From contig JAUHVL010000008.1 of NCBI GenBank assembly GCA_030425045.1, positions 62,001 through 126,000 on the forward strand: a stretch of DNA of 64,000 nt, in the 5' to 3' direction. This stretch comes from a bacterium (GTDB taxonomy: Bacteria > Bdellovibrionota > Bacteriovoracia > Bacteriovoracales > Bacteriovoracaceae). Positions 57,507-62,338 of the stretch are shown in pieces. The translations under genes were made by a program, and so were the position numbers. The notes beneath the pieces were generated by a model that saw only the letters and a program-made list of their open reading frames with translations, ran no database searches and was not told the DNA's origin. Position 1 is the first letter of the stretch. Every line of letters begins with the position of its first letter.

Positions 57507-57908
57507 ATGGAAAAATCACTCATCTCTTTAATGCTTTTTTATTACTGTTATATTATTGCGTTTATGTTTTTTATGTTCAAAAAGCGTAAGCAGGCCATCA
57601 TCAAAAAAGAAGTGCATCACTCCCATTTTAAAAGTTATCGTGGAGAAACAACCGAGTATCTTCAAATCATACAAAATCACTTCAATAATCAGTTTCAAAT
57701 TCCTACGATTTTCTTTGTCGTTTGTGTTCTCTGTATAGCGATGAATAAAGTAAGTTACGTCACCATATTTTTAGCATTGGCGTTCGTCGTTTCTAGGATT
57801 ATTCATAGCTTAATTCACTTAGGCTCAAATCATCTCATTAAAAGAGCAATGTCTTACTTTACAGGTGTGGTAATTGTTGCCGTCATGATTGTCACAACAT
57901 TGTATTAA
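57507..57908 (+). CDS. MAPEG-family membrane protein
   Basis: 133 residues with four membrane segments. QNHFNNQFQIPTIFFVV and VVSRIIHSLIHL match the second and third segments of bacterial MAPEG proteins (membrane proteins of eicosanoid and glutathione metabolism). Function in bacteria mostly unknown. No Shine-Dalgarno except the end of tpiA (GCG), so translation is probably coupled. Confidence 0.8.
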   Translation: MEKSLISLMLFYYCYIIAFMFFMFKKRKQAIIKKEVHHSHFKSYRGETTEYLQIIQNHFNNQFQIPTIFFVVCVLCIAMNKVSYVTIFLALAFVVSRIIHSLIHLGSNHLIKRAMSYFTGVVIVAVMIVTTLY

Positions 57909-57989
57909 TTATCTCAGAACATTTTTCCACCCTCATTTGATCTCCCCTTTGTGAGACAATATCTTCAATTGAATTCAATGGAGTTATTT

Positions 57990-60026
57990 GTGCAAAAAAA
58001 TTCACTATTAAAAGTCTTCTTTATCTTAATTCTGACTGCTAGTTGTTCATCGTTAACAAACAATTATCACGAAGCAACAACAGCTAACCGAAACCCCGCA
58101 TCAGATAGAGATGCCAATTTTAGTTATATCGAAACGATCAATAGCTATTCTCTTTCAGGTGCAGCAAGAGCGGCTCTGGTTTCTGATGATGAAGACTTAC
58201 TTAAAGCGAAAGGGAGAATGGAATTAATTTTTCAATTTGCCAGAGAAGAGCCCATCGCCTTTTTCGATGAATTGCGAAGAAGAGCTCCAGTCTTTAAGTC
58301 AAAAGCTGGTGGAACGGGCCAAGGCTGGATTAGCTGGTGGAAAGGATCGAAAATTCCAAATATCTATGTCGTCTCAACAAATAAATTAGTGAAAGAAGTA
58401 TTAAACAATAATGAAGTCTTCACAGTTAAAACCTATACCGAGCAAATGGATAAAACCGTTGGTCCTTTTATGCTTGGCCATGAAGTTTCTGCTCCTAATC
58501 CCCTTCGCGAAGGACAAACAATAGACTTTAATGTCGAGAAGCATGCCATGAGGCATCTCATCTATAATGCTGGTAATGATCTCGATGTCGTGAGAAGTAT
58601 CACAAGAGAAACAGTGAAAAATGCTCTGCTCAATGTTTCAGATGAAAACCCTAACCATATAGATGTCGTGAGAAAAATTACAAGAGATGTTCCCATAAAC
58701 GTCGTTAGAGAGTTCTTTGGTTTTGAAGCTCCTGTTAACGATATGAAAAAATGGTCGCGGGCCGCTCAGCATAGTTTTTTCCATAATCCTTTTAGAGATA
58801 AAAAAATCAATGAGAAATCGGTTGAAGCCGGACAAGAAATGAAAGCCTTCCTTGAAAAATTCATACCTCAGATAAGAAGGGCCATTGCTGGAAACTACGC
58901 TAAGAACACTACCGTTGTGCAAATGATTCGCGCCTCTGATGCTCACGCAAGACATGGTCTTGATGAGACTCGTTTAGCCGCTAATATTATGGGCCTTTTA
59001 ATTGGTGCTGTTGAAACGGGAAGTGCCGCTATTGTTCAGTCACTAGAATTCTTTCTCGATAATCCTTACCTGATGGACCAAGCGGTTGCCGCTGCTAAAT
59101 CAAACAATGATGAACTTCTTTCAAAAATGGTTTGGGAAGCGCTTAGGTTTAACCCTGTTAACCCTTGGGTTGGAAGATATAGTGTTGAAGATTTCACGTT
59201 AAGCGATGGAACGTTTATTGAAAAAGGTAGTTTAGTTTTAGCTGCTACAGAGTCTGCCATGTTTGACCCAGAGGTTTTTACGAACCCAATGAGATTCAGT
59301 ACCAATAGAGATCACTCTGATTATTTTCACTTAGGTTTTGCAAGACATCGCTGTTTAGGTGATGACGTGGCCATGGCCTTTGTCCCAGAGACAATCAAAC
59401 AACTCTTGCTTCTTCCCTACTTAAGAAGAGCAAAGGCAGGAGGGCCACCAAGGTTCAAAGCCTATAACCATAAAGCACGTTTAGTTGATAGCCCCTTTCC
59501 TGAATCATGGAAACTTATCTGGGGAGATGCCACGGCACTTCCAGGTGAAGACGCCGGTTTTGTCGACAGATGGAGCAGTAAGAAATGGATTACAAGAACT
59601 TTAAAGTATGTCGATGGTAGAATATGGGATGCAAAAGATCAGTACGGAACAGAGATTAAAAATATCGCTGGTCAACTCTTTAGTGATGATCCAAAAGAAA
59701 AAGAAGCCGGAGTTGTAGAGTTTGGAAGAATAGCCAAGTTAACTCTTGATGAGAACAAAACGCCAGGTGAGCTTTATGAAGCTTGTATGGATATCAATAA
59801 ACTCTCTCACTCTGTCTTTCCACAAATCGACCAGAGAGCAGCTTATTGTAAAGTAAGAATCGACTTTAGAGTTTGTTATGCTCTCGCGGCTAAAGTGATT
59901 GAGATGTCGACTGAAGACTCCTATCGATTCTGTGCAGACCAACACGAGTTTTTAACAGAAGATGAAAAAGAGCTCTTTAAAGCAAACTTTAGTACACATC
60001 CAAGTTTTGAATTTTTAGCAGATTAA
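57990..60026 (+). CDS. Exported cytochrome P450 lipoprotein
   Basis: 678 residues from the GTG at 57990, which has TGGAG six bases upstream and gives a complete lipoprotein signal ending LTASC (Cys19); starts at 57951 or 57978 only lengthen the N terminus. P450 landmarks: GAVETGSAA in the I-helix, E383xxR386 (WEALR) in the K-helix, and FHLGFARHRCLG with haem ligand Cys455. The C-terminal ~150 residues are an extension with four Cys (EACMD, AYCKV, RVCYA, RFCAD) that fit disulfides outside the cytoplasm. P450s normally face the cytoplasm and need a reductase; here the next gene is a di-haem cytochrome c lipoprotein 17 bases away. The substrate is unknown. Confidence 0.87.
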   Translation: MQKNSLLKVFFILILTASCSSLTNNYHEATTANRNPASDRDANFSYIETINSYSLSGAARAALVSDDEDLLKAKGRMELIFQFAREEPIAFFDELRRRAPVFKSKAGGTGQGWISWWKGSKIPNIYVVSTNKLVKEVLNNNEVFTVKTYTEQMDKTVGPFMLGHEVSAPNPLREGQTIDFNVEKHAMRHLIYNAGNDLDVVRSITRETVKNALLNVSDENPNHIDVVRKITRDVPINVVREFFGFEAPVNDMKKWSRAAQHSFFHNPFRDKKINEKSVEAGQEMKAFLEKFIPQIRRAIAGNYAKNTTVVQMIRASDAHARHGLDETRLAANIMGLLIGAVETGSAAIVQSLEFFLDNPYLMDQAVAAAKSNNDELLSKMVWEALRFNPVNPWVGRYSVEDFTLSDGTFIEKGSLVLAATESAMFDPEVFTNPMRFSTNRDHSDYFHLGFARHRCLGDDVAMAFVPETIKQLLLLPYLRRAKAGGPPRFKAYNHKARLVDSPFPESWKLIWGDATALPGEDAGFVDRWSSKKWITRTLKYVDGRIWDAKDQYGTEIKNIAGQLFSDDPKEKEAGVVEFGRIAKLTLDENKTPGELYEACMDINKLSHSVFPQIDQRAAYCKVRIDFRVCYALAAKVIEMSTEDSYRFCADQHEFLTEDEKELFKANFSTHPSFEFLAD

Positions 60027-60043
60027 TACTCATAGAGGATAAT

Positions 60044-62338
60044 ATGAAAACACTTTCATTTATTGTAATTTCACTTTTTATTTTCTCTTGCTCAAAAAAT
60101 AATTTTGATATCAAGAGATATCCTTCAAATTATGGAGGGGAAAGTTACGGGCAGTCAGTAGACTATTCTGAAAAATGGGTTCAAGACCTCATGTCAGAAA
60201 AAACGCGAATCGGTGCAGGAACCGTTGAATTTCCCGCAGGATTAACGGGTAAAGAAGTTGCAGACCTTTGGCATCTTAATGAAGGAAGTGAGTTCTATCC
60301 TCTCAAGTGGATGTTTCACTTAGAAAGTGTTAACTCAAACTTAAAAGGTACAAAGTTTCTAGAGAAGCTCGATGAAAAGTTTGGTGTTATCTACGATAGT
60401 TATAGTGTGCAGTATGGCTACCCTGTTCCATGGATTGGTGTCACGGCAGCTTGGACAGAAACTCACCCAACAGAATCGGACGTTTTAGTTGAGGCCAATG
60501 AACCTGTTAAGTTTCTAAAATGGGTCGACGCTAAACCAAAATTTGCTGTCAGTGGTGTGAACTGTTCTTTTTGTCATACTTCTGAAGTTCAATATCAATC
60601 TCCCTATGGACAAGAAAACCGCAAGGTGATTCTAGATGGAGCACCGGCAAATATGTATATCAGAGGTTACTTCAGAGACATGGTGGCTTCTACCATTAAA
60701 ACAATGCTAACTCCTGAAATGCTTACAGAGTTTATCGATAATAACTTAGGTCAAACCCCAGGGACATCAAAAAAGATTGCGAAACAATTCTCTAAACAAT
60801 TTAGAATCGAGTTAGGTTTAGATAAAGAACGCTTTTATGGACGTTGGTTTGATAATGCGATTAGAGGACTTTACCGTCGAGTCTCACCAGATAATTATCA
60901 AAATAGTGTGCTCAAAGCATTGCAAGATGCTCTCTTTCAAAGAAGAGATGTTGTCAAAAAATACTTAGTCAAACTCGTTGAACTCACTTATGACTTAAAA
61001 GGAAATCCTGTTCCGCAAGAACTGATCTTTCGATTAGAAAGATTAGCGATCACCGTTGGATCAGACCCAGACTTACCCGTTACTCCAGAGGGCTATACCA
61101 GAACTGATGCCTTTGGAAGAATTGGAAACCTCGTCGCAAGAATGAACGACCCCATTGAGTTAACTGCAACGACATCTGTTCCTCACATGTGGAGTACAAA
61201 GTATAAATCACTCTTTCATTGGAATGCTAATACCAACTCGGTGATGAACCGAAATATTGGACAAAGTTTTGGCTTAGGTGCCGTTTTAACGGGACCCGAA
61301 ATTGAAGACTCTGCTTCTCTCACAGAAGAGTTAAAACATAATGCCACAACGAACCTTCACAACTTGGCCAAGATTGAAAAACTCCTTTATAAAATTCAAG
61401 TTCCCAAGTTTGATTCAATTTTCCCACAACATACAAGGGAAGACAGAACAACTCTTCAAAATGGTTGTAATACTTTCGCCAACAAATGTATGGGTTGTCA
61501 TCAAACAGATCAACGAGTTGGCCCTATGGGGAAACTTGTCCACGACAATATGATACCTCATCGAGTGATCAAAACAGATTCATGGTACTCAGAATTACAA
61601 AAGAAACCTGTCGATGGAGTTCCTCTAAAAGACGCCCTTTTCGGTTTTGTTAATGCTGTAAAAAAACGTTACTACAGTAGGTTTGATATCTCGGAAAGAG
61701 AGCAAAGAGATTGGCAAAACAAAGACTTTAGAGGTCCTGAATATTTTAGAGATACATTTGTCGGTGAAAATAGTCATGATCCTAACGGACCTAGTGCCTA
61801 TCTAAATATCGATAAAAGACAAGCTGGCTACCCTGCTCGATCACTGGCAGGTGCATGGGCAACAGCTCCTTTCATGCATAACGGTTCAATCCCTACAGTT
61901 GCTGATATCTTAAAACCTGAAAACGAAAGACCTAAAATCTTCTTTGTTGGAAGCAATGAGTACGATAATGAGAATATGGGGTTCAAGTCGGGACTAGATT
62001 CTCTCCCTATCCCTAAAGAAGAAATTGAAAGAGAATTTCAAGCACAATTTTCTCAAAAAGCTTTAGTCAGTAAGATGAATAGTGGTACTTATGATTCTTC
62101 ACTCTTAAAGTTTGCTTGTGATAAGTTTCCTGCGAGATGTTTTAACTCTTCTCATAAAGGAAACTCAAACAAAGGGCACTCAGGAGAAAAGTTTGGAACT
62201 AATCTTCCCACTCAAGAGAAGCAGGACCTCATCTATTTCTTAAAGTACGTAAAACCACATATCGAATACAGCTGGAACTCTCCCCCGCTTTACCATGTCA
62301 AAAGAGAAGCGGGTAAAGTAGAATGTGTTCTATACTAA
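60044..62338 (+). CDS. Di-haem cytochrome c lipoprotein, RoxA/peroxidase-like
   Basis: 764 residues. Lipobox SLFIFSC. Two CxxCH haem sites: C174SFCH and C482MGCH, each in a typical context (GVNCSFCHTSEV; KCMGCHQTDQRVGPMG). A late segment LAGAWATAPFMHNGSIPTVADILKPENERP is like rubber oxygenase RoxA and other di-haem cytochrome c peroxidase-like proteins. Predicted lipid-anchored periplasmic or surface redox enzyme. RBS GAGGA. It immediately follows the P450 gene and may donate electrons to it or act on the same substrate. Confidence 0.85.
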   Translation: MKTLSFIVISLFIFSCSKNNFDIKRYPSNYGGESYGQSVDYSEKWVQDLMSEKTRIGAGTVEFPAGLTGKEVADLWHLNEGSEFYPLKWMFHLESVNSNLKGTKFLEKLDEKFGVIYDSYSVQYGYPVPWIGVTAAWTETHPTESDVLVEANEPVKFLKWVDAKPKFAVSGVNCSFCHTSEVQYQSPYGQENRKVILDGAPANMYIRGYFRDMVASTIKTMLTPEMLTEFIDNNLGQTPGTSKKIAKQFSKQFRIELGLDKERFYGRWFDNAIRGLYRRVSPDNYQNSVLKALQDALFQRRDVVKKYLVKLVELTYDLKGNPVPQELIFRLERLAITVGSDPDLPVTPEGYTRTDAFGRIGNLVARMNDPIELTATTSVPHMWSTKYKSLFHWNANTNSVMNRNIGQSFGLGAVLTGPEIEDSASLTEELKHNATTNLHNLAKIEKLLYKIQVPKFDSIFPQHTREDRTTLQNGCNTFANKCMGCHQTDQRVGPMGKLVHDNMIPHRVIKTDSWYSELQKKPVDGVPLKDALFGFVNAVKKRYYSRFDISEREQRDWQNKDFRGPEYFRDTFVGENSHDPNGPSAYLNIDKRQAGYPARSLAGAWATAPFMHNGSIPTVADILKPENERPKIFFVGSNEYDNENMGFKSGLDSLPIPKEEIEREFQAQFSQKALVSKMNSGTYDSSLLKFACDKFPARCFNSSHKGNSNKGHSGEKFGTNLPTQEKQDLIYFLKYVKPHIEYSWNSPPLYHVKREAGKVECVLY

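Follow-up and report, generated by a model that had tools for sequence, protein, structure and literature searches.

Dioxygenases and cytochromes P450 are known to work together in the production of oxidised-lipid signals in fungi and animals; namely, in the fungal dioxygenase-P450 fusions (linoleate diol, epoxy-alcohol and allene oxide synthases) and in the COX to PGIS/TXS cascade, a haem dioxygenase is paired with a self-sufficient P450. The CYP74 clan, which includes the hydroperoxide lyase of the bacterium Methylobacterium nodulans, is also relevant here, since the P450 described below is proposed, like this clan, to use lipid hydroperoxides without redox partners. In Pseudomonas aeruginosa, the oleate diol synthases PA2077/PA2078 (FadCcp) are RoxA-like di-haem c proteins with two CxxCH sites and the PY[FL]HNGSV motif; PA2077 is an exported fatty-acid dioxygenase (PMC4496055), and the second step is performed by a second di-haem protein, not a P450. 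The rubber oxygenases RoxA/RoxB also carry two c haems and the MauG motif, and no P450 partner is mentioned for them in the passages of the RoxA reviews consulted.

We examined a window of 64,000 nucleotides (positions 62,001 to 126,000 of contig JAUHVL010000008.1, assembly GCA_030425045.1, Bacteriovoracaceae), in which a first-pass annotation had pointed out a lipid-anchored, exported P450 with all core motifs and a Cys-rich C-terminal extension, followed after 17 bases by a RoxA-like di-haem lipoprotein. This observation was confirmed by our analysis. The features of the locus, all on the forward strand, are as follows.

57980..57983 (+), GGAG, a good ribosome site, 6 bases before GTG 57990
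57990..60026 (+), lipoprotein-signal cytochrome P450, 678 aa (stop 60024-60026)
57990..58046 (+), predicted lipoprotein signal MQKNSLLKVFFILILTAS-C19 (lipobox Cys codon 58044-58046)
59013..59018 (+), I-helix acid-alcohol pair E342-T343
59136..59147 (+), ExxR motif E383-A-L-R386
59352..59354 (+), haem-thiolate ligand Cys455
59535..60023 (+), C-terminal extension with four Cys (599, 620, 629, 648)
60034..60039 (+), AGAGGA ribosome site of the di-haem gene, in the 17-base gap
60044..62338 (+), RoxA-like di-haem c-type lipoprotein, 764 aa (proposed dioxygenase), starting with ATG 60044
60563..60577 (+), first haem-c site CSFCH (174-178)
61190..61192 (+), invariant W383, candidate counterpart of RoxA W302
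61487..61501 (+), second haem-c site CMGCH (482-486)
61868..61894 (+), MauG/RoxA motif PFMH612NGSIP
62177..62179 (+), His712, predicted second axial ligand of haem 2

The first gene belongs to the cytochrome P450 superfamily (Pfam PF00067, E 2e-18), and E342, T343, E383, L385, R386 and Cys455 were invariant in 38 homologues. The AlphaFold2 model has a core with pLDDT mostly above 90, and a Foldseek search with this model gave a TM of about 0.8 to bacterial P450s. The C-terminal extension (residues ~516-678) holds four Cys residues, so that "Cys-rich" is a fair but mild description.

The second gene was matched by NF040606 (E 9e-71) and by PF21419, RoxA-like (E 4e-15), and it also has a lipobox (Cys16). 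Both Cys and the His of each CxxCH site were invariant in 25 homologues; W383 and His712 were also invariant. With two CxxCH sites, the MauG motif and the C-terminal axial His, the protein has the sequence features of the RoxA-like / FadCcp di-haem oxygenases. In a profile search the protein hit the RoxA structure 4b2n (E 1.6e-29), where the C-terminal cytochrome domain was aligned, PFMHNGSIP corresponding to PYFHNGSVP of RoxA and His712 to the His of the RoxA GNDNGGH. In contrast, similarity in the active-site half was low; the RoxA half around residues 302-317, including Trp302 and Phe317, did not align in the profile alignments, and the correspondence of W383 to W302 is hence only a candidate one. 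The scores of 42-46 bits were far below the curated cut-offs (900-1000 bits) of RoxA, RoxB and RoxC, and the protein is not a rubber oxygenase proper by this criterion. Furthermore, the Foldseek search with the di-haem model found no significant PDB match, RoxA included, although the pTM of the model was 0.83.

The export of the P450 is predicted from sequence, without protein-level data, but is supported by more than the signal itself. The signal has the n-region charge, the hydrophobic core and the lipobox Cys and matches the PROSITE-type lipobox pattern, while Thr at -3 is slightly unusual. ATG 57978 and GTG 57951 are alternative starts, but both keep the same signal. Among the relatives, the lipobox pattern was found in 12 of 18 proteins of the exported group, most of the others having a Sec-type signal as judged by eye, against 0 of 71 other proteins by the same pattern. 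The exported relatives form one deep clade (support 100/98), several members of which have Sec type I signals, and their P450 cores keep almost only the haem cysteine (mean number of core Cys 1.4 against 3.5, p 6e-7). The four Cys of the C-terminal domain have the same spacing in L029/L046 (L numbers denote related loci), and in one lineage (L041/L042) this domain is a separate gene with its own Sec signal. It is therefore very unlikely that the N-terminal stretch is a membrane anchor facing the cytoplasm or results from a mis-called start.

The pairing of the two genes is not a local feature. Of 80 related P450 loci from many phyla, 64 have the di-haem gene within two genes, 56 of which are adjacent, and 7 instead have a COX-like haem dioxygenase nearby. 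Among 369 genomes of the phylum, 16 of 17 P450-positive genomes also carry the di-haem gene, in some on another contig (Fisher 6e-25; by genera 1e-14). The absence of conserved linkage in relatives had been named beforehand as a result that would refute the proposal, and the linkage was found to be strongly conserved and far wider than Bacteriovoracales. The COX-like partners in the seven loci and in three rhizobial plasmids, ten in total, all have the YRWH tyrosine motif, and the one compared with solved structures matched COX-2 best (E 6.6e-49), with its Tyr aligned to the Tyr of the COX YHWH. The partners were swapped at least four times; a single clade for the partner was rejected (AU test, p 1.5e-8), and P450s 70% identical to each other (L080 and L079) have different partners. 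What the two non-homologous partner types would share is dioxygenase chemistry, which is inferred for the di-haem proteins: RoxA and the P. aeruginosa 10S-DOX are RoxA-like (PMC4496055), and YRWH is the tyrosyl motif of fungal dioxygenase-P450 enzymes (PMC4496055, PMC13049297).

These results bear on how the P450 would be driven. The first-pass annotation proposed that the extracytoplasmic P450 is fed by a c-type cytochrome or, alternatively, acts with a peroxidase-like oxygenase on a polymer or lipid, and this interpretation is supported only in part. Export with lipid anchoring and a true functional pair are supported. Also, the electron-feed model, in which the di-haem protein or another periplasmic cytochrome reduces an ordinary O2-dependent monooxygenase outside the cytoplasm, would be consistent with the predicted extracytoplasmic location of both proteins in this clade and with the E-T pair of monooxygenases. 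Nonetheless, the di-haem gene is replaced in related loci by a COX-like haem dioxygenase that is not an electron carrier, and in most bacteria with the di-haem partner the P450 has no export signal while the di-haem protein is exported, so direct electron transfer could not be the general function. The di-haem protein is, furthermore, a 70-85 kDa RoxA-type enzyme and not a small carrier. We thus consider the electron-feed model as unlikely, and the other option, a partnership with an oxygenase, fits best; a fatty acid or lipid is favoured over a polymer as the substrate but is not shown. Patatin-like phospholipase genes follow the P450 in L055, L066, L070 and L090, while no evidence on the substrate exists in the genome under study.

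As the explanation that we favour, albeit with no more than even confidence, the two genes would form an extracytoplasmic oxygenation cascade. In this view, the di-haem RoxA-like lipoprotein acts as a dioxygenase that puts O2 onto an unsaturated lipid (most likely a fatty acid or acyl lipid) to give a hydroperoxide, and the neighbouring lipid-anchored P450 takes that hydroperoxide as substrate and oxygen source, rearranging or cleaving it to a diol, epoxy-alcohol, aldehyde or similar, so that it would need no ferredoxin or flavin donor and could work outside the cytoplasm. While our analysis establishes both genes, both export signals, the conserved pairing and the swap for a COX-like dioxygenase, the location at the outer membrane, the dioxygenase activity of the di-haem protein, the lipid nature of the substrate and the consumption of the hydroperoxide by the P450 without a reductase are all inferred. 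The gene pair looks like a bacterial counterpart of the fungal and animal cascades, from which it differs in that the genes are separate, the partner is usually a di-haem c RoxA-like protein, and both proteins at this locus are predicted to be exported lipoproteins.

The main counter-evidence is the intact Glu-Thr acid-alcohol pair of O2-activating P450s, because CYP74, CYP8A1 and the fungal partner P450s have altered I-helix residues (PMC13049297, PMC10813956); the altered I-helix groove of the CYP74 and fungal LDS-AOS type is therefore not found in this family. Sequence and fold also place the P450 among ordinary bacterial monooxygenases, and in most relatives the P450 and the di-haem protein are predicted in different compartments, so the intermediate would have to cross a membrane. 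Alternatively, and in line with the invariant E342-T343, the class I bacterial P450 fold and the different compartments in most relatives, the P450 might be a conventional monooxygenase that acts in the same lipid pathway before or after the dioxygenase, where cytoplasmic members use general ferredoxins and the exported members use an unidentified donor or H2O2. No ferredoxin-like ORF was found, however, within 4 genes of any of the 80 loci by a motif search, and there was no redox family among the recurrent neighbours; this model does not explain a working exported form or the restriction of the partners to dioxygenase types, either, and appears doubtful. A conserved Gln/Asn at T343+7 was considered as a catalytic amide like that of fungal LDS but was dropped, since the aligned ordinary P450 chain 5l90 also has Asn at this position.

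P450s are taken to be cytosolic or cytosol-facing enzymes that depend on NAD(P)H-linked donors. The conserved exported clade suggests that evolution moved one outside, and the conserved partnership suggests how it can run there. More tentatively, and somewhat less likely than not, the P450 might be fuelled outside the cytoplasm by hydroperoxide from the neighbouring di-haem c dioxygenase in a periplasmic or outer-membrane, reductase-free oxylipin cascade, which would be part of a wider bacterial family with two unrelated dioxygenase types serving the same P450. No earlier description was found in the literature searched, which does not cover most subscription journals. The wider pair of the P450 with a di-haem (or COX-like) protein is present in ammonia and nitrite oxidisers, methanotrophs, rhizobia, cyanobacteria and Bdellovibrionota and offers a concrete lead on bacterial oxylipin chemistry and on the role of many unnamed "di-haem cytochrome c peroxidases".

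In this respect, a role in defence was also considered, where the di-haem protein is a peroxidase and the P450 is a peroxygenase that detoxifies lipid hydroperoxides and protects the envelope. The hit to NF040606, a family named di-haem cytochrome c peroxidase, the export of haem proteins and a MAPEG gene upstream (57507-57908, PF01124) would be consistent with such a role. The RoxA-like branch contains dioxygenases, however, and the alternative partner has the dioxygenase tyrosine motif, which makes the defence model improbable. The MAPEG gene was indeed rejected as a third member, since in relatives it sits elsewhere without the pair, and DUF1304, examined as a possible MAPEG relative, showed no similarity. 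A scan for promoters and terminators gave results at the background level. As a minor deviation in the P450 itself, the Phe that usually occurs seven residues before the Cys (FxxGx[RH]xCxG) is replaced by Leu448 at this locus and by Leu in most exported relatives, whereas many cytoplasmic members have Phe; this is a known kind of variation and does not disqualify the protein from the superfamily.

The reading frame of the P450 was found to start at a GTG codon preceded by GGAG at a distance of six bases, whereas the earlier starts at 57978 and 57951 lack such a site and would keep the same signal. The genes concerned are as follows.

57507-57908 (+), MAPEG family gene (PF01124, E 7e-17), directly after tpiA and before the P450
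57990 (GTG) to the stop at 60024-60026, P450
from 60044, 17 bases after the P450 stop and with its own AGAGGA site, di-haem protein

The P450 was found by Pfam at E 2e-18, and E383, R386 and Cys455 are as described in the first-pass annotation; an acid-alcohol pair, E342-T343, is also present. The di-haem protein has a lipobox (Cys16), two CxxCH motifs (174-178 and 482-486), the MauG motif and a C-terminal His712 that aligns with the RoxA ligand region. It is over the cut-off of NF040606 (di-haem cytochrome c peroxidase) and PF21419 (RoxA-like), but far below RoxA/B/C themselves. The MAPEG family gene lies in other contexts in relatives and is hence probably not part of the pair.

Export of the P450 was examined by comparison with its homologues. 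In the Bdellovibrionota loci, the lipobox is conserved (L029, L030, L031, L032, L033, L035, L041, L043 and others) or replaced by a Sec type I signal (L036-L039). A lipobox pattern matched 12 of 18 proteins of this group and 0 of 71 others; by eye, most of the remaining six carry a Sec signal, and one Prosthecobacter member (L064) has VVSC, which is missed by the strict pattern. In a tree with 49 rows, furthermore, all eight exported rows included in it, among them L064, fall in one clade with support 100/98, and a larger tree of 87 rows does the same for 15 rows. The exported P450 cores hold a mean of 1.4 Cys, in most only the haem ligand, against 3.5 in the sisters without signals (Mann-Whitney, 6e-7), although this p-value is not a count of independent events because the exported proteins are one lineage. 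The C-terminal extension carries four Cys with the same spacing in L029/L046. In L041 and L042, in contrast, the P450 lacks the extension, and the next gene (L041:7372-8142 and L042:8304-9074) encodes a related domain (E about 1e-3, a weak match but with the Cys pattern) that starts with its own Sec-type signal. Together, these results make export likely; Ser at +2 after the lipobox Cys would, by the rule in E. coli, send the protein to the outer membrane. We also noticed lipobox-bearing P450 paralogues that lack the haem-ligand Cys and are probably non-haem pseudo-enzymes (L029:6013-8112 (= L046) and L044:7044-8213); the one in L029 directly follows the P450/di-haem pair.

Both genes are absent from the same-family relatives searched. 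Across 369 genomes of the phylum, 17 have this P450 family (three generic P450 hits were set aside by hand) and 18 have the di-haem gene, 16 of which are shared (Fisher, 6e-25); in terms of genera, 10 are shared out of 11 and 11 (1e-14). In several genomes (G209, G212 and G214), the two genes were found on different contigs, while in 11 of the phylum loci they are neighbours or near neighbours, in either order and also divergent. The observation of the first-pass annotation, namely an export signal on the P450 and its pairing with the di-haem gene, stands.

A wider genome scan then gave 80 P450 loci from Pseudomonadota, Cyanobacteriota, Verrucomicrobiota, Acidobacteriota, Nitrospirota and others, of which 64 have the di-haem homologue within two genes, 56 of them adjacent. 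Seven others (L054, L063, L067, L074, L076, L080 and L081) have an animal-type haem peroxidase, adjacent in six and six genes away in L054, and the same arrangement is seen in the rhizobial plasmid loci L024, L026 and L027. All ten of these proteins carry YRWH, which is described as the tyrosyl-radical motif of fungal dioxygenases (PMC4496055); the one compared with solved structures (L081) best matches COX-2 (E 6.6e-49), with its Tyr aligned to the YHWH Tyr of COX. Nine loci have no partner in view, and several of these sit at contig ends. The partner type changes at least four times on the tree, and holding the P450s with COX-like partners as one clade is rejected (p 1.5e-8); indeed, the P450s of L080 and L079 are 70% identical with different partners.

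Two unrelated proteins that share haem-dioxygenase-type chemistry replace each other beside one P450 family. The simplest reading, which we hold with only even confidence, is that the P450 receives the product of the dioxygenase, a hydroperoxide, as in the COX to PGIS/TXS route and the fungal DOX-P450 fusions (PMC13049297). This reading would also explain how a P450 can work outside the cytoplasm, where no ferredoxin or NAD(P)H is available. While the genes, their signals, the conserved pairing and the partner exchange are seen in the sequences, the location of the P450, the dioxygenase activity of the di-haem protein, the lipid nature of the substrate and the consumption of a hydroperoxide are inferred. 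A motif search revealed no ferredoxin-like ORF within four genes of any locus, and no redox family stands out among 141 neighbours, as far as the 25 most frequent families show. A lipid substrate is suggested by the chemistry of the nearest characterised relatives, RoxA and PA2077 (PMC4496055, PMC10837239), and also by patatin-like phospholipase genes, which lie directly after the P450 on the same strand in Verrucomicrobia, Neptunomonas and Nitrotoga:

L055:4074-6281, patatin-like phospholipase gene
L066:9193-11295, patatin-like phospholipase gene
L070:6655-8757, patatin-like phospholipase gene
L090:9523-12444, patatin-like phospholipase gene

Some of the evidence, however, speaks against this reading. 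The P450 retains the Glu-Thr pair that ordinary P450s use to activate O2, and its closest structures are ordinary bacterial monooxygenases. Also, most relatives have a P450 without a signal and a di-haem partner with one, so that the intermediate would need to cross the inner membrane; this weakens a simple relay there, though not in the exported clade. The AlphaFold model of the di-haem protein (pTM 0.83) had no significant match in Foldseek, not even RoxA, and in spite of this discrepancy we rely on the sequence profile match to RoxA (E 1.6e-29), in which the W302/F317 region of RoxA could not be aligned.

The interpretation in the first-pass annotation is only partly supported: its proposal that the c-type cytochrome acts as the electron donor of the P450 is unlikely as the function of the family, given the partner exchange and the different compartments of the two proteins in most relatives, although it is not excluded for the exported clade alone. 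The system resembles known dioxygenase-P450 cascades in its logic, but the exported P450, the di-haem c partner and the partner exchange appear to be undescribed in the open papers searched.

A small membrane protein, DUF1304 (PF06993), was furthermore found to recur beside or within the P450/di-haem cluster in several bacterial groups and is perhaps a third component:

L030:6119-6484, DUF1304 gene
L036:5339-5701, DUF1304 gene
L053:10146-10517, DUF1304 gene
L065:9153-9551, DUF1304 gene
L066:5194-5553, DUF1304 gene
L070:2499-2858, DUF1304 gene
L086:10347-10709, DUF1304 gene

In addition to the pair, the genome under study (G000) carries a second, unlinked RoxA-like di-haem gene and a second, ordinary P450, at about 70828-71508 of contig C75 and about 29119-30240 of contig C78, respectively.
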